From the NCBI GenBank assembly GCA_016285645.1, contig JAEERC010000027.1, positions 1 to 64,000 of the forward strand: a stretch of DNA of 64,000 bases. Direction: 5' to 3'. The position numbers and the translations under genes were made by a program. Within the stretch, counting starts at the first letter, position 1. Every line of letters begins with the position of its first letter. The notes below the pieces were generated by a model. That model ran no database searches. It had not been told where the DNA came from and worked only from the letters and a program-made list of their open reading frames with translations. Source of the stretch: Clostridiaceae bacterium (lineage in GTDB: Bacteria; Bacillota; Clostridia; Oscillospirales; Acutalibacteraceae). Below, in pieces: positions 2 through 63,182 of this stretch.

Positions 2-1852
2 CAGCTTATTCAGGAAGGTCTCGGCGGCGTTCCCAACAAGATTACCTCCTCCCCCGCGAGCCACCTTTCAACCCTCTGCAACCAGATGGTAAACTTCCTC
101 GGCATTATGCAGAACGAGTGGGCGGGCGCTCAGGCGTTCTCTTCGTTCGACACATATCTCGCCCCCTTCGTAAAGGTTGACAACCTCAGCTACAAAGAAG
201 TCAAGCAGTGCATCCAGTCCTTCGTTTACGGCGTCAACACGCCTTCAAGATGGGGCACCCAGGCGCCGTTCTCAAACATCACGCTTGACTGGACCGTTCC
301 CGCCGACCTTGCCGAGCAGAACGCGATTATCGGCGGCAAGGAAGTCGATTTCAAATATAAAGACTGCAAAGCCGAAATGGATTTGATAAACAAGGCGTTT
401 ATCGAAATCATGATTGAGGGCGACGCGAACGGCAGAGGCTTCCAGTATCCCATCCCCACCTACTCAATCACAAGCGACTTTGACTGGTCCGAAACAGAGA
501 ACAACAAACTTCTCTTCGAAATGACCTCAAAATACGGCACACCCTATTTCTCAAACTACATCAACTCCGATATGGAGCCCAGCGACGTGCGCAGCATGTG
601 CTGCCGTCTTCGCCTTGACCTGAGGGAACTGCGCAAAAAGAGCGGCGGCTTCTTCGGCAGCGGCGAGAGCACCGGCTCCGTGGGCGTTGTCACAATCAAT
701 ATGCCGAGAATCGCCTATCTCGCGGACAGCCCCGAGGATTTCTACAAGCGCTTAAACAAGCTTATGGATATAGCGGCCCGCTCGCTCAAGGTAAAGCGCA
801 CAATCATCACGAAGCTTCTCGATGAGGGTCTTTATCCCTACACAAAGCGCTACCTCGGCACATTCGCAAACCACTTCTCCACAATCGGTCTTATCGGTAT
901 GAACGAAGTAGGTCTCAACGCCAAATGGCTGCGCTCCGACCTCACCCAGCCCGAAACACAGCAGTTCACAAAGGATGTTCTCAACCACATGCGCGAGCGT
1001 CTTTCGGACTATCAGGAGGAATACGGCGACCTCTACAACCTTGAGGCGACTCCCGCCGAGTCAACAACCTACCGCTTCGCTAAACACGATGTTGAGAGAT
1101 ATCCCGACATCATTACGGCGGCGGAACCCGGCGGAACACCCTACTACACCAACAGCTCGCACCTTCCCGTCGGCTTCACATCCGACATCTTCGACGCTCT
1201 CGACATTCAGGACGAGCTTCAGACTCTTTACACCTCGGGCACGGTGTTCCACGCCTTCCTCGGCGAAAAACTTCCCGACTGGAAAGCGGCGGCGAACCTT
1301 GTGCGCAAGATTGCCGAGAACTACACACTGCCCTACTACACGCTCTCACCCACCTATTCCGTGTGCAAGAACCACGGCTATCTCACGGGCGAGCAGAGCG
1401 TATGCCCGCATTGCGGCGAGGCGACCGAGGTTTACAGCCGCATAACCGGCTACTACCGCCCCGTTCAGAACTGGAACGACGGCAAGGCGCAGGAATACAA
1501 GGAGCGCAAGGTCTATGATATAGGCACTTCCGTGCTCAAGAAATCCCACGCCAGAGCCCACGAGGAGAGCGCGACGGCGGCGGCTTCCTCCGCGGTTGAC
1601 ACAACAGGTCAGAAAGACACAATCCTTTTCACAACAAAAACCTGCCCCAACTGCCAGATAGCCAAAACCCAGCTTGACAGAGCGGGCATTGAATACAGGG
1701 TTGTTTACGCCGACGAGGTTCCCGACCTGTGCGACAAGTTCAACATTATGCAGGCGCCCACACTCGTTATAGTTGACGGCGAAAGCTACGAATCCTACGC
1801 CAATGTTTCGAACATTATCAAATACATCGAGGCAAAGAAAGTAACGGCATAA
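2..1852 (+). CDS. nrdD: Anaerobic (class III) ribonucleoside-triphosphate reductase with C-terminal glutaredoxin-like domain, 5'-truncated
   Basis: Catalytic subunit that reduces ribonucleotides to deoxyribonucleotides without oxygen, using a glycyl radical made by the activase NrdG. The frame is open from base 2, before the first ATG at 86, so the N-terminus (including any ATP-cone) lies outside the window. Visible near the C-terminus are a zinc site of the type Cys-x2-His-Gly-Tyr-Leu followed by CPHC (about 1363-1420), then the glycyl-radical loop RITGYYRPVQNW (about 1435-1475). After a short Ala/Ser linker come about 80 residues (about 1615-1852) with ILFTTKTCPNCQIAK, a CPNC redox motif, and a cis-Pro region APTLVIVDGE, typical of glutaredoxin/NrdH-like folds. 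This tail presumably re-reduces the active-site cysteines in cis (inference). No nrdG follows; the next gene is unrelated. Confidence 0.95.
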   Translation, partial: QLIQEGLGGVPNKITSSPASHLSTLCNQMVNFLGIMQNEWAGAQAFSSFDTYLAPFVKVDNLSYKEVKQCIQSFVYGVNTPSRWGTQAPFSNITLDWTVPADLAEQNAIIGGKEVDFKYKDCKAEMDLINKAFIEIMIEGDANGRGFQYPIPTYSITSDFDWSETENNKLLFEMTSKYGTPYFSNYINSDMEPSDVRSMCCRLRLDLRELRKKSGGFFGSGESTGSVGVVTINMPRIAYLADSPEDFYKRLNKLMDIAARSLKVKRTIITKLLDEGLYPYTKRYLGTFANHFSTIGLIGMNEVGLNAKWLRSDLTQPETQQFTKDVLNHMRERLSDYQEEYGDLYNLEATPAESTTYRFAKHDVERYPDIITAAEPGGTPYYTNSSHLPVGFTSDIFDALDIQDELQTLYTSGTVFHAFLGEKLPDWKAAANLVRKIAENYTLPYYTLSPTYSVCKNHGYLTGEQSVCPHCGEATEVYSRITGYYRPVQNWNDGKAQEYKERKVYDIGTSVLKKSHARAHEESATAAASSAVDTTGQKDTILFTTKTCPNCQIAKTQLDRAGIEYRVVYADEVPDLCDKFNIMQAPTLVIVDGESYESYANVSNIIKYIEAKKVTA

Positions 1853-3620: not shown

Positions 3621-3705
3621 ATACACTTCAAACCTTTTATAATTTCATCTGTCTTATAGGTGAAGGGGCTCAGAACCCCTTATATTGAATAACGGAGGGA
3701 TCGGT

Positions 3706-6102
3706 TTGGAAATCGACAAAACAAAACTCGCGCAGGAAGTCGTAAAATATCAGAACGGCGACGGAAAGGCGTTTGAAACAATTTACAACATGACAAACAG
3801 GGCGGCGTATTTCACCGCGCTGAAAATTGTCAAAAATGAGGATGACGCGCAGGATATAGTGCAGGACAGTTATGTAAAGGTGCTCGAAAAGCTGACAACG
3901 CTCAGGGAACCGGAAACCTTTATGAGCTGGTTCAATATGATTGTTGCCAACACGGCTAAAAACAGCCTCGCGAAAAGCAACCCCTCCCTCTTCGCCGATG
4001 AGGAGACGGAGACATTCGTTCTCGAGTCCATACCCGAGGAAAACAGGGAATATGTTCCCGAGAGCAGCATTGAAAAGGATGACCTTTGCAAAGAGGTTGT
4101 GGCTCTTGTTGACGGGCTGAGCGACGAAAAGCGCACGGCTGTTATGCTTTATTACTACGACGAGCTTACAACAAGGCAAATTGCCGAATCGCTCGGAATC
4201 AACGAAAACACGGTAAAAAGCCGCCTTTTTCAGGCAAGGAAAGACCTTGCCAGAGGCGTTGACGAGCTTGAGAAGAAAAACAAGAAGCTGCTCGGTGTGG
4301 CGCCCATTCCGCTGGTTATCTGGGCTCTCAAGCACACAGGCACGTCAGCAAGTGCGGCTTATGTTGCAAGCGGCGCGGCGGCAACCACTCTCACCGCGGT
4401 TACGGCAACAGCGGGCATCGGTTCCGCTGCAGGCACAGCCGCTGCGGGTTCGGCTGTTGCGGGTTCAGTCGCCGCGGGCACCGCGGGCGGCATAGGCGCA
4501 AAAATTGCGGGGCTTTCACTTATTCAGAAAATAATCGCGGCAGCGGCGGCAGTGGCAATTGTTGCCGGCGCGGCTGAGGGCACGGCAATAGCCGTAAAGA
4601 ACCGCTCAGGCGAGGCAGTAACTGTCAAAAAGCATACGGGTACGCCGATTACGGTGAACACAGTCGCTCGTCCTGATATTTCGTCTGAAAATAACAAAGC
4701 CCGCACCGGTGAATACGGTCCGTTGTCTTATGTGATAAAAAACAATGAGGTAACTATTACATATTGTGAAAATTATGCCAGCGGAAGACTTGATATTCCA
4801 AAATATATTGAAGGGCTGCCTGTCAGAACATTAAGAGAAGCGCTATTCCGTGATAACGATAAACTTACAGAAATAACAATTCCCGACAGCGTTACGGATA
4901 TTGGTTATGAAGCTTTTGCCGGATGCACCGGACTGAAGGAAATAACAATACCCGACAGCGTTACGGATACGGGAGACGGAATATTTGCCGGATGCACCGG
5001 GCTTGAATCCGTTAAAATCGGTAGTGGAATCGAAACTCTCAACGGAACTTTTTCCGGATGCACCGGACTGAAGGAAATAACAATACCCGACAGCGTTACG
5101 GATATAGGCGGTTGTGCTTTTCTGGGCTGCTCATCCCTTGAAAAAGTAACAATCGGAAGAGGCGTAAAAACTATCGGATATAGGGCATTTGGCGAGTGCA
5201 CCGCGCTCACCGGAATCGTTATTCCCGACGGCGTTACGGATATAAAATCAGATGCATTCAAAGACTGCACAACATTGACGGATATCTTCCTTCCCGACAG
5301 CGTCACAAGCATAGATATATCTGCATTTACACAAACTGCTTTTATTTATGATGATTCAAACAGAACAAATGGCATTCTTTACATAAATAACTGCCTTATT
5401 GAGGCAAAGGGAAGAGGCAGTTATGAAATAAGCCATAACACCTCCTGCATAGCCGACGGAGCGTTTATTGACAACAATTATGAAAGTATTACCGTCGCCA
5501 CCGGCAACCAGAGATACTATTCATCGGGCAACTGTGTTGTTGAAAGAAAAAGCGGAACAGTGGTCGCCGGGTGCAAAAACAGCGTTATTCCCAATGACGG
5601 CACAATTAAGAAAATCGGAATCTACGCATTTTGCGGCTGCAAACTTGAAGAGGCAACTGTTCCCGGCAGTGTTACAGATATAGAAGAGGAAGCTTTTTCC
5701 GATTGTCATTCTCTCAGAATAATAACTCTTCCGGACAGCGTCAGGAACATAGGCAGATATGCATTTTCAGACACCGCATATTATAATAATGAATCAAACT
5801 GGGAAAACGGGGTTTTGTATATCGGCAACCATCTCATAGAGGTAAGAAGTACGGTGGAAAACTGCGTAATAAAGCCGGGAACCCTTACCATAGCCGAAAA
5901 CGCTTTACAACAATTTTCACAACTTAAAACATTGGTTATTCCCGGCAGTGTTTCAAAGATAGGCAGATCTGCATTCTTTAGTTGCTATGAGCTTACCGAT
6001 GTTTATTACGCTGGCAGCGAAGCAGACAGGCAGAAAATAGAAATCGGAGATGGAAACGGTTATCTGGAAAACGCAACCTGGCACTACAATGCAAAGCAAT
6101 AA
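3706..6102 (+). CDS. ECF-type sigma-70 factor fused to a transmembrane segment and BspA-like leucine-rich repeats
   Basis: A 798-residue protein with an unusual domain order. Residues about 10-85 are sigma-70 region 2 (DDAQDIVQDSYVKVLEKL) and about 115-185 are region 4 with a helix-turn-helix (LTTRQIAESLGINENTVKSR). Then come about 75 Ala/Gly/Thr-rich residues, a hydrophobic helix (KIIAAAAAVAIVAG, about residues 275-300) and roughly 490 residues of LRR_5/BspA repeats built on ITIPDSVTDIG-x-AFxGCTGLK. The orientation is probably sigma domain inside, repeats outside. I chose the TTG at 3706: GGAGGG sits 6 nt upstream, whereas a TTG at 3685 has no ribosome site. No anti-sigma gene follows, so the C-terminal part may control the sigma domain (inference). 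Similar Ala-rich-tailed clostridial ECF factors exist to my knowledge, but the function of such fusions is not established. Confidence 0.88.
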   Translation: MEIDKTKLAQEVVKYQNGDGKAFETIYNMTNRAAYFTALKIVKNEDDAQDIVQDSYVKVLEKLTTLREPETFMSWFNMIVANTAKNSLAKSNPSLFADEETETFVLESIPEENREYVPESSIEKDDLCKEVVALVDGLSDEKRTAVMLYYYDELTTRQIAESLGINENTVKSRLFQARKDLARGVDELEKKNKKLLGVAPIPLVIWALKHTGTSASAAYVASGAAATTLTAVTATAGIGSAAGTAAAGSAVAGSVAAGTAGGIGAKIAGLSLIQKIIAAAAAVAIVAGAAEGTAIAVKNRSGEAVTVKKHTGTPITVNTVARPDISSENNKARTGEYGPLSYVIKNNEVTITYCENYASGRLDIPKYIEGLPVRTLREALFRDNDKLTEITIPDSVTDIGYEAFAGCTGLKEITIPDSVTDTGDGIFAGCTGLESVKIGSGIETLNGTFSGCTGLKEITIPDSVTDIGGCAFLGCSSLEKVTIGRGVKTIGYRAFGECTALTGIVIPDGVTDIKSDAFKDCTTLTDIFLPDSVTSIDISAFTQTAFIYDDSNRTNGILYINNCLIEAKGRGSYEISHNTSCIADGAFIDNNYESITVATGNQRYYSSGNCVVERKSGTVVAGCKNSVIPNDGTIKKIGIYAFCGCKLEEATVPGSVTDIEEEAFSDCHSLRIITLPDSVRNIGRYAFSDTAYYNNESNWENGVLYIGNHLIEVRSTVENCVIKPGTLTIAENALQQFSQLKTLVIPGSVSKIGRSAFFSCYELTDVYYAGSEADRQKIEIGDGNGYLENATWHYNAKQ

Positions 6103-50224: not shown

Positions 50225-51583
50225 TTATTCTTCTTTTTCTTCCTCGGGTTTTTCTTCCGCTTTCGCTTCATCGCCCGAGCCGTCATCGTATTCAACGGAG
50301 TATGAGGGTTTATCGTCCTTCGCGGAGTCTTCATCCTCCTCTTCCATGGCGGAGAGTATCTTTTCCCTGCGCACCACGAAGAAGGCGATTACAGCCGCCG
50401 CAGCCACAACAGCCGCGAGCACAAGAACAATCAGGGCAACCTTTCTGTTGGATTCCTCGTTCTTTGTTATTTCATCCGCCCCGTTGTTGTTTTTGCCGGG
50501 GTTGTCGGAACCGAGGAAGGAAACCTCGTTGAAGGTAAAGCCGCTCTCGTTGGCGTAAATCTGCGCTTCGCTGTCGCGCTCGCCGTAGATTGTGAAGTTC
50601 TCGTCAACATTGCAGAACGCCGACGGGTCAATGTATATGACGCTGCCGGGAATTGTGGCGCTCGAAAGCTTGGTGTTCTGGAACGCGCGGTGGCTTATAT
50701 ATTTTACGGGCATGCCGTCGATTGAGGACGGAATGGTGATGTCGGAATCCGAACCGATGTAATAGGCGATTATAACCTCGGAGGCGTCGGCAATCTGATA
50801 ATAGAAATCGTCATAAACAAAGATTGTGTCGCCTATGTCGAGCTGTGAGAGAATGTTTGTTGTTTCCGGCTCATTCGGGTCGCCCGGCTGAGTGACCGAG
50901 GGAGGAAGGGTGAAATTCGAGGCGGCGGTTTCTCTTATATAGACATAAGTAATCTGCTGCCTTGTGGTGCTCTGGGTTGAATCCGTTTCAGAGCCCGTCT
51001 CACTGCCTGTTCCCGTTTCGGTTACGGATGTGGCGGAAACGCCCGTCTGCGGGTCATCGCCCGTAACTCCCGTTGTGGAGGAAACGGGGCCCGTTTCGTT
51101 GGCGCTCTTTACCTTTGAGGCGGCGCCCTCGTATTCAACTATAAGCATGCAGTCTCTCGAGCGTTCGCACTGGTGCCACGCGCCCGAGGAGGTGTCGATA
51201 TAGGCGTATTTTTCAATTGAGTCGGTCGGGGTTGTGCCGCCCTCCCAGTTGGCGTAGGCGACATTGCCGCCGTTTTCCCAGGTCCAGCCCGAACTCTGAC
51301 GCACCGCGCCCAGCCAGTATATTCCGCCCGGAGCGATGCCCATAATGAAATTCTGCTCCGCCTGGCTGTTGATGTTGAGAATATGGCCGCCGTCGCCCTT
51401 GCGGTTAGCGGCGCTCTTGGCGGAGGTGTATGTGTAATTGGTGTTTACAACCTCATAGGCGTTGCCGCCGAAGGTGTAATATGTTACCTTATCCGAAAAA
51501 GCGGAGCCGATAACATTCACTGCCGGCACGGCTATGGCGAGCACAAGCAGAAATACAAAAAGTGTTTTTATCTGTTTTGACAA
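50225..51583 (-). CDS. Membrane protein with C-type-lectin-like domain, LRR_5 segment and acidic cytoplasmic tail
   Basis: A 452-residue surface protein. After an N-terminal signal (KTLFVFLLVLAIAVPAVNVI) comes a C-type-lectin-like domain (YEVVNTNYTYTSAKSAA, HILNINSQAEQNFI, YWLGAVRQSSGWTWENG, CMLIVEYEG), but the calcium-binding EPN/WND motifs are not evident, so sugar binding is not assured. Then a Thr/Ser/Gly-rich linker, a BspA-like LRR_5 segment (DITIPSSIDGMPVKYISHRAF), a membrane helix (VALIVLVLAAVVAAAAVIAFFVV) and about 55 mostly acidic cytoplasmic residues. The start is probably the TTG at 51583 because AAAGGAG lies about 8 nt before it; the longer frame to 51622 contains that site. It follows the nucleoside ABC genes by 25 nt, so it may be co-transcribed. 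Confidence 0.78.
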   Translation of the reverse strand: MSKQIKTLFVFLLVLAIAVPAVNVIGSAFSDKVTYYTFGGNAYEVVNTNYTYTSAKSAANRKGDGGHILNINSQAEQNFIMGIAPGGIYWLGAVRQSSGWTWENGGNVAYANWEGGTTPTDSIEKYAYIDTSSGAWHQCERSRDCMLIVEYEGAASKVKSANETGPVSSTTGVTGDDPQTGVSATSVTETGTGSETGSETDSTQSTTRQQITYVYIRETAASNFTLPPSVTQPGDPNEPETTNILSQLDIGDTIFVYDDFYYQIADASEVIIAYYIGSDSDITIPSSIDGMPVKYISHRAFQNTKLSSATIPGSVIYIDPSAFCNVDENFTIYGERDSEAQIYANESGFTFNEVSFLGSDNPGKNNNGADEITKNEESNRKVALIVLVLAAVVAAAAVIAFFVVRREKILSAMEEEDEDSAKDDKPSYSVEYDDGSGDEAKAEEKPEEEKEE

Positions 51584-51608
51584 AACTGACACTCCTTTCA
51601 TATATGAA

Positions 51609-52589
51609 TCATCTGTCTTCACGGAAATAACTTAAGCCCAGCGAGGCGGGCGGCTGGTTTTCGCGTTTGCGGCGCATACTTACGAATATGAGAACAAGAA
51701 TCGTAACCGCGTAGGGAGTCATCTTGATTAATTCCATACCGCTGAAGGTCGTGTTTGGAATATAGTTGTGAATTATCAGCAGGCCGCCGAAGACTATTGA
51801 GCCGATTATGCTGAGATTCGGGCGCCATACCGCGAAAATAACAAGGGCAATCGCGAGCCAGCCTCTGTCGCCGAAGCCGTCGTTGGACCAGACGCCGTTC
51901 GCGTAATCCATTACATAGTAAAGTCCGCCGAGACCGGCTATAACCGAGCCGATGACCGTGGCGCCGTATTTATAAGCGGTTACGTTTATGCCCGCCGCGT
52001 CGGCTGTTGCGGGATTTTCACCTATAGACCTGAGGTGAAGACCGGAGCGCGTGCGCTTGAAATACCACGAGGCGATGAACGCTATAATAATCGCGACATA
52101 GGCGAGCGCGCTGTATGAAAAGAAGATATCGCCTATCACTCCGAGCTTGGAGGCGAAGGGAAGCGTGGTTTTGAACACCTTGCTTGTGGCGGAAAGAGCG
52201 ATTGAGGGGATTTCGGTGTTGCCTGAGAGCTTGATGAGCGAACCGCCGAAGAAGTTGCCGAAGCCCACGCCGAATGTTGTGAGGGCAAGACCCGTTACAT
52301 TCTGGTTTGCCCTGAGCGTTACGGTGAGGAACGAATAGATAAGTCCGCAGACCGCCGAGCCGAGTATTGAAGAGAGAAGCGGAATAATGACCGCGAGAGC
52401 GGGATTGAAAGCGGCGGTGTTCGTTTCATAGAGGAAAGAACCGATAACTCCGCAGATGCCGCCCACATACATAACGCCCGCGGTACCGAGGTTCAGATGA
52501 CCGCTTTTTTCGGTGATTATTTCACCGGTGGAACCGAACAGAAGAGGTATGCCGAGCATTACAGCCCTTTGAATGAAAGCGATAATCAT
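51609..52589 (-). CDS. BMP-type nucleoside ABC transporter, permease 2
   Basis: A 326-residue membrane protein of the branched-chain/simple-sugar permease family (YufQ/NupQ-like): IPLLFGSTGEIITEKSGHLNLGTAGVMYVGG at the start (described in part), TLRANQNVTGLALTTFGVG and the cytoplasmic EAA-like loop RTRSGLHLRSIGENPATADAAGIN. It forms the channel together with the other permease. It overlaps the first permease by 4 nt. The lectin-like gene follows. Confidence 0.9.
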   Translation of the reverse strand: MIIAFIQRAVMLGIPLLFGSTGEIITEKSGHLNLGTAGVMYVGGICGVIGSFLYETNTAAFNPALAVIIPLLSSILGSAVCGLIYSFLTVTLRANQNVTGLALTTFGVGFGNFFGGSLIKLSGNTEIPSIALSATSKVFKTTLPFASKLGVIGDIFFSYSALAYVAIIIAFIASWYFKRTRSGLHLRSIGENPATADAAGINVTAYKYGATVIGSVIAGLGGLYYVMDYANGVWSNDGFGDRGWLAIALVIFAVWRPNLSIIGSIVFGGLLIIHNYIPNTTFSGMELIKMTPYAVTILVLIFVSMRRKRENQPPASLGLSYFREDR

Positions 52590-60099: not shown

Positions 60100-63000
60100 T
60101 TACTGATCGATTACGGGAAGAAGACCGAAGAGATTTCTGATGAAGGCAATCAGACGGTAAATGAAGCCGGTTCTGATTGTGACCTTTTCGGTGTCGCTCG
60201 CGTAGATTATATCGCCGCTGTCGTTAATGAATTTGACCTGTACGGTGTAGCTGTCGGTCGCCTCTTCAACAGTGTATTTTTCGCCCGTGCCGAGATCCTC
60301 ACCGTTTATGAACCAGTGAATTGTAAGGTCGTCGGCGTCCTCGGCGTTGGCTGTTGTGGCGGTGAAGTTGATTGTGCTTCTGTATGCCTCGGTGCGCTCG
60401 GCAACAAAGTTGCTGACGCCTACACGGATATCCGGATTGTAAATCTTGAATTCCGCTTCGTCGCCGTCCTGAGCTGTTTCGGGAAGAATCTCAATTGTGC
60501 CGTATGTTTCCTCGTCAACCTCTTCAAAATAATACTCAACACCCATATATCTGAATGAAGCGTCATCCTCAAGAGGCTTGACTTCGGCTTCCTCGAGTTC
60601 CTCGGCTATTGTGTAAACAACAAATTCACTCAGACCGTCCGCGCCCTTGAGATAGCAGATATCCTCGGCGTCTTTTACGACAACCTCGTTTTTGTCGGCA
60701 TAGATATAGTGCCTGAGGTTGTTCATGGAATCGGCGTACTCGAAATAGGTGCGGACATCCATAAGGTCAAAGCCCTTAATATCAACATTCTCAACACCTA
60801 TGGAATCGGACTTTTCGTGAATGAAGCCGTCGGAGCCCATATAATAGTAAACCTCAACGCCGGGATAGTTGTTATCGTAGGCGTAGATTCTGTCCTGCCC
60901 GTTGACCTTGTTGTAATGGATGAAGTTTACGGCGTGGCCGCCGCCCGCGCGGTACCACATGCCTATATTCAGCGCGCCCGTGTAATCGTATTCGTGGCCG
61001 CTGACATAACTTACGCAGGCGTTCCAGTCGGAAATAGTGGCGACATTTCCCGTAAGGTCAAGACTGCCGCCCGCTACTATCGCCTCAATTTCGGCGCCTC
61101 TCGAGCCTCTGGGACCTACATTGCCCTGAACATCAAGATAATGGCAGATTGGCTTAGTAACCGCTTCACTTTTTCCGAAAGAAGAAAGAGGTGAATCCGA
61201 ACTGCCGCCGATTGATGTTTTGTCGAGTATGCCGAGATAGTATGCCGAACTTGTTACTGCCATACCGAAGCAGTGACCGCTCTTAAATTTGAATCCGTGC
61301 AGATCTTGGTAATTAATGAAACTGTAGGATTCCTCGCCTACATTGTAGATGTTATCCCACTGTGCGTAAAGGCTGAGGTTTGTCGCGGGCATTGAGCCGG
61401 GAACCTCGGGAGACCAGCCGGTGAATACGCTGCCGAATTTTTCGGGTTCCGTGAGCGGCTGCTTGACGGCGGTTCCGTAAACTACATTGTATTCCTGATA
61501 GACCTCGCCGTTTGCGTAATAAGTGACTTTATAGACATTCGGGGTGTAAATCGCGTTGACTATAACGCCGTCAACGGTCAGCTCATACTCTTCCCATCTG
61601 CCCGAGTGACCCGTTTTGCCGGGAACGGCGGGCTCTTCGATTTCCTCGGTGAGGCGGGTGTATTCGACTGTGCCGACCACATTGCCGTCGGCCATAAAGA
61701 TTGCCTTGTAGGGCTCTTTGTTGAAAAGAATGTTCGCCTCGGTGAGACATTCGTTATTCTCTTTGATATCTATGTTTTCCCAGTCCTCGACATTTCCGCC
61801 GTAAACAACGGAATTGAGCGAGGTGCAGGAACTGAACGCGGATTTGCCGACCGTCTCAAGACTTTCGGGCAGGTCAACCTGCTCAAGGGACGAGCACTGT
61901 GAGAAGGCGTCGTCGCCGATTACGGTAACGCCCTCGGGAACAGACGCGGTTACAAAGCCGGTGCAGCCGAAGAAGGCGCTGCCGCCGATTGAGGTGATGC
62001 CTTCGGGAATGATTATCTCCTCAGTCGGGCAGTTATAAAACGCCGCGAAGCCGATGGATGTTACACAGCCGTCGTCGGGAATAACGCTGTTTTTGCAGCC
62101 GGCAACAAGAGTTTTGCTCTGTGTTTCGATAAGGCAGTCGCCCTCCGAATGATAGACGGTATTGTCTTCGGACACGGCGATTGTTTCAAGTCCTGAACAG
62201 GCGGCGAAAGCGTAACTGCCGATTTTTGTGACGCTCGCGGGAATATCGAGATAGGTAAGCCCTATGCAGTTTGAGAAAGCGCCGTTGCCGATAGTTGTAA
62301 TGCCGTCGGGTATGGCGATGCCCGCAAGACCCGCGCACAGATAAAAGGCGTAATCGCCTATGGAGGTTACGCTGCCGTCGGTCGGGATAACGCTTTTTCT
62401 GCAGCCCGCGACAAGCTTTTTGCTCTCTGTTTCTATAATGCAGTTTCCGTCCGAATGATAGACGGTGTTGTCTTCGGAGACGGTTATGCTTGTAAGGCCG
62501 TCGCAGCCGCCGAACGCCGCGCTGCCGATGCTTGTAATGCAGTCGGGAATAACAACGCTTTTAATGTCGCTCAAACCGAGGAAGGCGTTCGCTCCTATGG
62601 CGGTCACGCTGCCGTCGGTCGGGATAACGCTGCCCGTACAGCCCGCGACGATTTTCGCGCCCGCAGTTTCGATAATGCAGTTTCCGTCCGAATAATATGC
62701 GGTGTTGTCCTCGGAAACGGTCATACTCTCAATGCCCGTGCAGTAAGCAAAAGCGGAATCGCCTATACTTTTCACGCCCGCGGGAATCAGGACCGCTTCA
62801 AGCCCCGTGCAGCGGCAGAAGGCGGAATCGCCTATTTCGGTGACGCTGTCGGGTATTGTGACGCTCACAATATCGGCGCAGTTGTAAAACGCCTCTTTGC
62901 CTATGGCGGTAACGGGGTATTTGTCGAGTGTGTCGGGTATTACGAGGTTTGCGGGAACCGCGCCGTCATAACCCGTTACGGTGGCTTTGCCGTGGCTCAA

Positions 63001-63150
63001 TGTGTAGGTGAAGGCCTCGTTTTCATCCGCGGAAGCCCTGACACTTACAGCGTTCAGCACCCGCGCAAGCGAACTGCCGCCCGCCGCGACGGTGCCCGCG
63101 ACAAGCACGGCGCACAAAATAAGCGATACGATTTTTTTGCTGAGTTTCAT
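60100..63150 (-). CDS. Secreted BspA-type LRR protein with papain-like cysteine peptidase-like domain
   Basis: A 1016-residue secreted protein. Signal peptide (MKLSKKIVSLILCAVLVAGTVAAG), then about 10 LRR_5 repeats (VTIPDSVTEIGDSAFCRCTG-type) interleaved with SEDNTVYHSDGNCIIET units (residues about 60-470), then a Listeria/Bacteroides-type beta-grasp repeat (YYANGEVYQEYNVVYGTAV ... FTGWSPEVPG, about 545-610). Next (about 615-790) is FKSGHCFGMAVTSSAYYLG, GGHAVNFIHYNKV and IYAYDNNYPG, with Cys, His and Asp in papain-fold order, suggesting a cysteine peptidase or transferase. After beta-rich segments it ends in a hydrophobic helix, IYRLIAFIRNLFGLLPVIDQ. GGGGAGA lies 8 nt before the ATG at 63150. 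It follows the WYL regulator by 32 nt. Confidence 0.85.
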   Translation of the reverse strand: MKLSKKIVSLILCAVLVAGTVAAGGSSLARVLNAVSVRASADENEAFTYTLSHGKATVTGYDGAVPANLVIPDTLDKYPVTAIGKEAFYNCADIVSVTIPDSVTEIGDSAFCRCTGLEAVLIPAGVKSIGDSAFAYCTGIESMTVSEDNTAYYSDGNCIIETAGAKIVAGCTGSVIPTDGSVTAIGANAFLGLSDIKSVVIPDCITSIGSAAFGGCDGLTSITVSEDNTVYHSDGNCIIETESKKLVAGCRKSVIPTDGSVTSIGDYAFYLCAGLAGIAIPDGITTIGNGAFSNCIGLTYLDIPASVTKIGSYAFAACSGLETIAVSEDNTVYHSEGDCLIETQSKTLVAGCKNSVIPDDGCVTSIGFAAFYNCPTEEIIIPEGITSIGGSAFFGCTGFVTASVPEGVTVIGDDAFSQCSSLEQVDLPESLETVGKSAFSSCTSLNSVVYGGNVEDWENIDIKENNECLTEANILFNKEPYKAIFMADGNVVGTVEYTRLTEEIEEPAVPGKTGHSGRWEEYELTVDGVIVNAIYTPNVYKVTYYANGEVYQEYNVVYGTAVKQPLTEPEKFGSVFTGWSPEVPGSMPATNLSLYAQWDNIYNVGEESYSFINYQDLHGFKFKSGHCFGMAVTSSAYYLGILDKTSIGGSSDSPLSSFGKSEAVTKPICHYLDVQGNVGPRGSRGAEIEAIVAGGSLDLTGNVATISDWNACVSYVSGHEYDYTGALNIGMWYRAGGGHAVNFIHYNKVNGQDRIYAYDNNYPGVEVYYYMGSDGFIHEKSDSIGVENVDIKGFDLMDVRTYFEYADSMNNLRHYIYADKNEVVVKDAEDICYLKGADGLSEFVVYTIAEELEEAEVKPLEDDASFRYMGVEYYFEEVDEETYGTIEILPETAQDGDEAEFKIYNPDIRVGVSNFVAERTEAYRSTINFTATTANAEDADDLTIHWFINGEDLGTGEKYTVEEATDSYTVQVKFINDSGDIIYASDTEKVTIRTGFIYRLIAFIRNLFGLLPVIDQ

Positions 63151-63182
63151 CTGTTTTGTCTCCCCAATCAAAATTTTTTAAT

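Follow-up and report, generated by a model that had tools for sequence, protein, structure and literature searches.

An ECF sigma factor fused to a predicted membrane segment and a leucine-rich-repeat domain in a Clostridiaceae bacterium

Results and discussion

The 64,000-nt stretch of DNA analysed here (the window; positions 1 to 64,000 of contig JAEERC010000027.1 in Clostridiaceae bacterium assembly GCA_016285645.1) contains a gene for an extracytoplasmic function (ECF) sigma factor which is joined, in a single intact frame of 798 codons on the forward strand, to a linker, a predicted transmembrane (TM) segment and leucine-rich repeats (LRR) of the BspA type. We propose that the product is, on balance, a one-piece transmembrane receptor, from which the sigma domain would be released by proteolysis, and which would regulate its own gene and genes for secreted proteins. 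The evidence consists of the domain architecture, the conservation of the module and the selection acting on it, a promoter motif with the genes behind it, and an operon link to LRR proteins.

Sigma domain, linker and membrane segment

By its domain content the window protein is an ECF sigma factor, with sigma regions 2 and 4 and without regions 1 and 3. Pfam matches were obtained with Sigma70_r2 (E = 2.5e-7) and Sigma70_r4_2 (E = 6.8e-15), the NCBIfam model TIGR02937 (sigma70-ECF) was passed with 83.9 bits at a cut-off of 42.9, and the solved SigW, RpoE and SigH were PDB sequence matches of the sigma part. The sigma domains were confident in an AlphaFold model of residues 1–345, to which SigW from the SigW/RsiW complex is the closest PDB fold. 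Comparison of the sigma part with that of a same-genome paralogue carrying a CAP domain gave nonsynonymous (dN) and synonymous (dS) divergences of 0.116 and 1.77 (dN/dS ~0.07), and the ECF sigma domains are both intact and under purifying selection. Region 4 is followed by a further conserved helix, named here after its PLVxWALK motif, in which Pro200 is invariant in a 14-member alignment; AlphaFold places a helix at residues 200–221, with a pLDDT of ~90 at residues 201–210 declining to 75, and the low dN of the motif indicates selection like that on the sigma domain.

The initial annotation had described one continuous frame with ECF sigma regions 2 and 4, linker, membrane helix and repeats, and this was borne out with exact coordinates and by the Pfam and NCBIfam matches. 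Its BspA-type repeats are likewise present (Pfam LRR_5, E = 7.6e-72), covering ~440 residues rather than the ~490 proposed, and PDB relatives of this part include 4fs7 and 4gt6 among several solved LRR proteins. A frameshift or mis-join uniting two genes, which would have undermined that annotation, is ruled out by the recurrence of the same sigma-linker-TM join in dozens of loci, together with the dN/dS of the sigma part. LRR_5 was also matched elsewhere in the window, in frames 60100–63171 and 50225–51622 (both on the reverse strand), the genome scan placing these matches at C41:61789–62910 and C41:50609–50740, the latter below cut-off.

The linker consists of Ala, Gly, Ser and Thr for 83% over the 58-residue stretch measured, and family linkers, 44–83 aa in length, have a median of 76% of these residues versus a background of 30%; two members with a CAP domain have a charged linker in place of this type. 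The hydrophobic segment behind the linker is real but marginal, with Kyte-Doolittle values of 2.03 for residues 272–290 (which include Lys275) and 1.84 for residues 276–294, and an uncharged core of 15 residues that ends before Glu291. A hydrophobic segment stands at the equivalent place in almost all members of the family (median Kyte-Doolittle 1.86), in keeping with the membrane helix that had been annotated between region 4 and the repeats. Since positive charges flank the segment on both sides, the positive-inside rule gives no clear orientation. The outer domains of the family (LRR_5, CAP and Thr-rich stalk) belong to types usually seen at the cell surface, and this is the better argument that the C-terminus may lie outside.

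A family with exchangeable outer domains

Two paralogues in the same genome, which the initial annotation had missed, are 74% and 67% identical to the window protein over residues 1–303 (sigma-linker-TM), and their outer parts consist of a CAP domain in one and a Thr-rich stalk with a short end domain in the other. A search of 148 related genomes at a threshold of 1e-20 gave a match in 37 of the genomes, including 30 of the 45 from the same genus, and ~70 loci were compared. Nearly all members consist of a sigma domain and a linker followed by one hydrophobic segment, with 170–900 residues in the outer part, which is of LRR, CAP, Thr-stalk or a 455-residue type without Pfam match. Another sigma-TM-LRR protein was found on a termite-gut Oscillospiraceae contig, and other sigma-TM fusions on Erysipelotrichales contigs. 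Among 77 sigma modules placed in a tree, the window protein groups with the CAP paralogue (support 98/92) and then with the Thr-stalk paralogue (99/90), and the LRR label requires 5 changes on this tree; outer domains have therefore been exchanged. The claim of the initial annotation that sensor and sigma factor form one polypeptide thus gains strong support from a sigma-linker-TM module that is conserved throughout the family and carries exchangeable outer domains.

The membrane part might alternatively be a mere tether of a constitutively active sigma factor, with the LRR domain acting as a surface adhesin and the fusion coupling the amount of adhesin to the expression of other genes. LRR proteins are indeed common in this genome (~25 LRR open frames), but we consider this improbable, as the conservation of sigma-TM with varying outer domains among close paralogues is the pattern of a sensor, and as the PLVxWALK helix is under selection resembling that on the sigma domain.

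The same genome also has a membrane-fused sigma-like protein of another kind, in a more distant 726-aa frame (C28; L039:3363–5543, forward strand) with sigma region 4, WG repeats and a strong membrane segment at residues 357–375.

Promoter and candidate regulon

An ECF-type promoter, also missed by the initial annotation, lies just 5′ of the window gene (AAACC-N15-TGTCTTATAGGTGAA), with the AAC-like -35 and CGTC-like -10 elements by which ECF promoters, often found before their own gene, are recognised; what was found here is the presence of the motif. The pattern AAACCN{15,17}YGTCTTATNNGTGAA matched once in the window and not at all in 100 shuffles. Across the whole genome (2.6 Mb), AAACCN{15,17}YGTCTTA gave four sites and YGTCWTATNNGTGAA the identical four, with none for the reversed controls, although the two patterns overlap at the -10 region and are not fully independent. 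The four sites precede the window gene, a gene for a 45-aa protein and an LRR gene, both at the C19 paralogue, and a gene for a secreted 229-aa protein, the locus of which also encodes the 45-aa protein of the sigma-TM loci. Both C19 promoters are followed by an arrangement similar to the hairpin at the expected transcript start of the window gene. Sister genomes have a related form, GACCAAAC-N-CGTCTTATAGGTG (GACC...CGTCTTATAGGTG), which was detected before one sigma-TM gene, before small upstream genes of other sigma-TM loci and, besides these, mostly before genes for secreted or membrane proteins. We read these sites as signs of positive autoregulation and of a small regulon of envelope genes, and from their co-occurrence with the genes we infer that sigma factors of this family may read the AAACC/GACC-type promoter. 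Many pattern matches in other genomes are without a -35 element and are probably due to chance.

The paralogue at C24 (L037:3109–4911, reverse strand), which is of the CAP type, has upstream a sigma-A-like promoter with an inverted repeat (TTGTCATAT...ATATGACGGG) in place of an ECF promoter, and many Thr-stalk members are without the motif; the C24 promoter and these members rule out that all of the family share one promoter type.

Link to LRR proteins and small proteins

The sister genes are linked in operons to genes for LRR proteins, a further feature overlooked initially. In 48 of 65 non-redundant genus members a same-strand gene of at least 400 aa lies directly downstream, its product often having a signal-peptide-like N-terminus. 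The downstream gene encodes a BspA-type LRR protein in 31/65, many of these again with a signal-peptide-like N-terminus, versus an expectation of ~1% based on the LRR frames of this genome. At C19 the gene for a secreted 1231-aa LRR protein precedes the sigma-TM gene by 30 nt, whereas the window gene has no LRR neighbour and has LRR fused into its protein instead. Aligned over 468 columns, the LRR domain of the window protein and the secreted LRR protein from the C19 operon share 34% identity, and finding the domain fused at one locus and separately encoded at the other suggests that the two proteins may act together. An LRR fused into the protein and an LRR gene next to it do not exclude each other, since several members have both. 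Members of the CAP type are followed by a secreted protein, with a papain-family match in the member scanned; at C24 the secreted papain-family protein starts 2 nt after the sigma-TM gene. The secreted partner proteins at L053, L056, L057, L063 and other loci share an unusual C-terminal tail (YAWWQWIIRILLLGFLWY), and another group of partners has GFFxKLIAFFxxLFxxLP at the C-terminus.

Two small proteins recur in the family. The 45-aa protein (MNIEELIRESLK...; L227:571–714 at C19, also L224 and L226) is conserved at 10 sigma-TM loci, and this genome has three copies, one each at C24, C19 and the fourth promoter locus. A protein of ~90 aa (NLDGLHSLDISV...YAEKFDEPCNYL) is encoded directly upstream of sigma-TM at 14 loci (e.g. 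L057, L065 and L234), and three copies of its gene have an ECF promoter in front. Such conservation would fit a separate small protein as the anti-sigma factor, with the membrane part being secondary, yet neither protein is encoded beside the window gene and we regard this explanation as improbable. The window gene is preceded by a gene for an RlmA-type methyltransferase (Pfam) and followed by a gene on the opposite strand, so the initial annotation was correct that no anti-sigma gene is adjacent.

A proposed model of release from the membrane

In the mechanism we favour, the sigma domain and linker would be cytoplasmic, one weak helix would cross the membrane, and the BspA-type LRR domain would serve as receptor outside. 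At rest the sigma domain would be kept at the membrane, probably with the help of the conserved PLVxWALK helix. Binding of a ligand to the LRR domain, or loss of a partner, would lead to a cut outside and then to one within the membrane by a site-2 protease, for which a complete RseP-type gene is present in the same genome, and the sigma domain set free would direct transcription of its own gene and of a few genes for secreted proteins from AAACC-N15-17-TGTCTTAT promoters. Release by intramembrane proteolysis is likely in our view.

Several observations weigh against this model. Neither a site-1 protease nor a cleavage site was identified in our analysis, and the membrane segment, being Ala/Gly-rich with Glu291 within it and Lys/Arg on either side, leaves the topology uncertain, as does the AlphaFold model, which has no confident structure beyond residue 239 and gives both linker and membrane segment low confidence. 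The assignment of the promoter to the sigma factor is based on co-occurrence: GACC-type sites were found in 9 of the 30 genus genomes with sigma-TM genes and in 1 of the 15 without, with no gene behind that last site, and the C24 paralogue has no AAACC-type site by either its upstream region or the whole-genome pattern search.

A sigma factor that acts while tethered to the membrane, like CadC or ToxR, with the ligand altering its conformation or oligomeric state, would need no cleavage and hence would agree with the failure to find a cleavage site; the flexible Gly/Ala-rich linker is also long enough for the sigma domain to reach RNA polymerase and DNA. We nevertheless think this rather unlikely, since proteolysis is the presumed route of release for the one-piece membrane sigma factors characterised or proposed so far, as was shown for IutY, through Prc and RseP (PMC8999054), and proposed for ECF52, for which autoregulation was also suggested (PMC5826349, PMC8999054).

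Under the favoured model of release, the fate of the freed domain may depend on the linker. RsgI proteins of Clostridium thermocellum are cut by RseP and then degraded by ClpXP (PMC12203970), and a fused sigma domain would be destroyed by ClpXP as well unless the protease were stalled; the Ala/Gly-rich linker is therefore proposed as a stop signal. Gly-rich tracts are reported to stall ClpXP (PMC6677533), and the processing of Caulobacter DnaX, as cited there, offers a precedent for a ClpXP stop that leaves an intact domain. By analogy, the window protein could be one of a family of one-piece transmembrane sigma receptors, widespread in Bacillota and with surface sensors that can be exchanged, each receptor controlling secreted LRR proteins, proteases or other surface proteins, with the linker stopping ClpXP after intramembrane cleavage and leaving an intact, active sigma domain; in this extended form the proposal is speculative and, as a whole, unlikely.

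Annotated features

The coordinates of the features of the window gene are given in Table 1. Elsewhere in the window, the frame at 86–1852 (forward strand) encodes an anaerobic ribonucleotide reductase (NRDD) whose C-terminal domain is glutaredoxin-like; the NRDD match begins at profile position 91, and the N-terminus is absent from the listed frame.

Table 1. Features of the sigma-linker-TM-LRR gene and its promoter region.
Feature	Position	Strand	Basis
ECF-type promoter: -35 AAACC (3630–3634), -10 TGTCTTA (3650–3656), conserved TATAGGTGAA start region	3630–3664	+	Pattern search
Short hairpin GGGG-CTCAGAA-CCCC at expected transcript start	3665–3679	+	Sequence
Shine-Dalgarno GGAGGG	3694–3699	+	Sequence; 7 nt (from GGAGG) 5′ of TTG start
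Sigma-linker-TM-LRR protein, 798 aa	3706–6102	+	Open-frame and sequence reading; TTG start 3706, stop 6100–6102
Sigma region 2, aa 31–91	3796–3978	+	Pfam PF04542, AlphaFold helices pLDDT >90, SigW/RpoE fold match
Sigma region 4 with helix-turn-helix, aa 130–181	4093–4248	+	Pfam PF08281, AlphaFold, fold match
Conserved post-sigma4 helix GVAPIPLVIWALK, aa 194–212	4285–4341	+	Alignment, AlphaFold, low dN
Ala/Gly/Ser/Thr linker, aa 213–268	4342–4509	+	Composition
Predicted single TM segment, aa 276–297, after conserved Lys275	4531–4596	+	Hydropathy, alignment, low-confidence AlphaFold helix 273–288
BspA-type LRR domain, aa ~340–780, predicted extracellular	4720–6075	+	Pfam LRR_5

Comparison with known systems

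The initial annotation knew of no mechanism for an LRR-bearing ECF factor. One-piece membrane sigma factors do have analogues in ECF52 and IutY (ECF243) (PMC8999054, PMC5826349), while an LRR-bearing sigma factor, or a Bacillota family of this kind, was not found in the literature covered, which consisted of open papers. Zinc-finger, FecR and RsgI anti-sigma domains were considered as candidates in the window protein and rejected on the basis of Pfam and a Cys motif. Like the window protein, ECF52 (SCO4117 of Streptomyces), ECF48 and ECF53 combine sigma domain, membrane part and surface domain in one polypeptide, but they are Actinobacterial and have a zinc-finger anti-sigma (ZAS) domain, with SCO4117 also having a carbohydrate-binding module; the window protein has no HxxxCxxC, a single Cys in residues 1–300 and no Pfam zinc-finger match. 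In IutY (ECF243) of Pseudomonas putida the sigma domain is similarly fused to a membrane-bound regulatory part, which is a FecR-like anti-sigma domain, and no FecR Pfam match was obtained for the window protein at E 0.01. The SigI/RsgI systems of C. thermocellum resemble the family in having one membrane module with many sensor domains within one genome (PMC12203970), but SigI and RsgI are separate proteins, SigI is not an ECF sigma factor, and RsgI_N gave no Pfam match in the window protein. SigW matches the sigma domain best in structure and also well in sequence, but its anti-sigma factor RsiW is a separate protein; BspA-type LRR surface proteins have LRR_5 in common with the window protein but carry no sigma domain. 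The SnoaL, TPR and WD40 extensions of other ECF groups (ECF41, ECF42, ECF57) had no Pfam match in the window protein.

A family in gut Clostridia in which a switch-plus-membrane module is joined to various outer domains is apparently undescribed. Few membrane-tethered sigma factors are known, and this would add to them a large family in which the output module is conserved and the sensors are interchangeable. It suggests how gut bacteria could sense their surroundings through LRR surface domains; the defined promoter motif and recognisable candidate targets make ligand, cleavage and regulon directly testable. The window protein lacks the defining features of ECF52/48/53, ECF243 and SigI/RsgI, but would work on the same principle as these systems; its sensor domain and its lineage are new.
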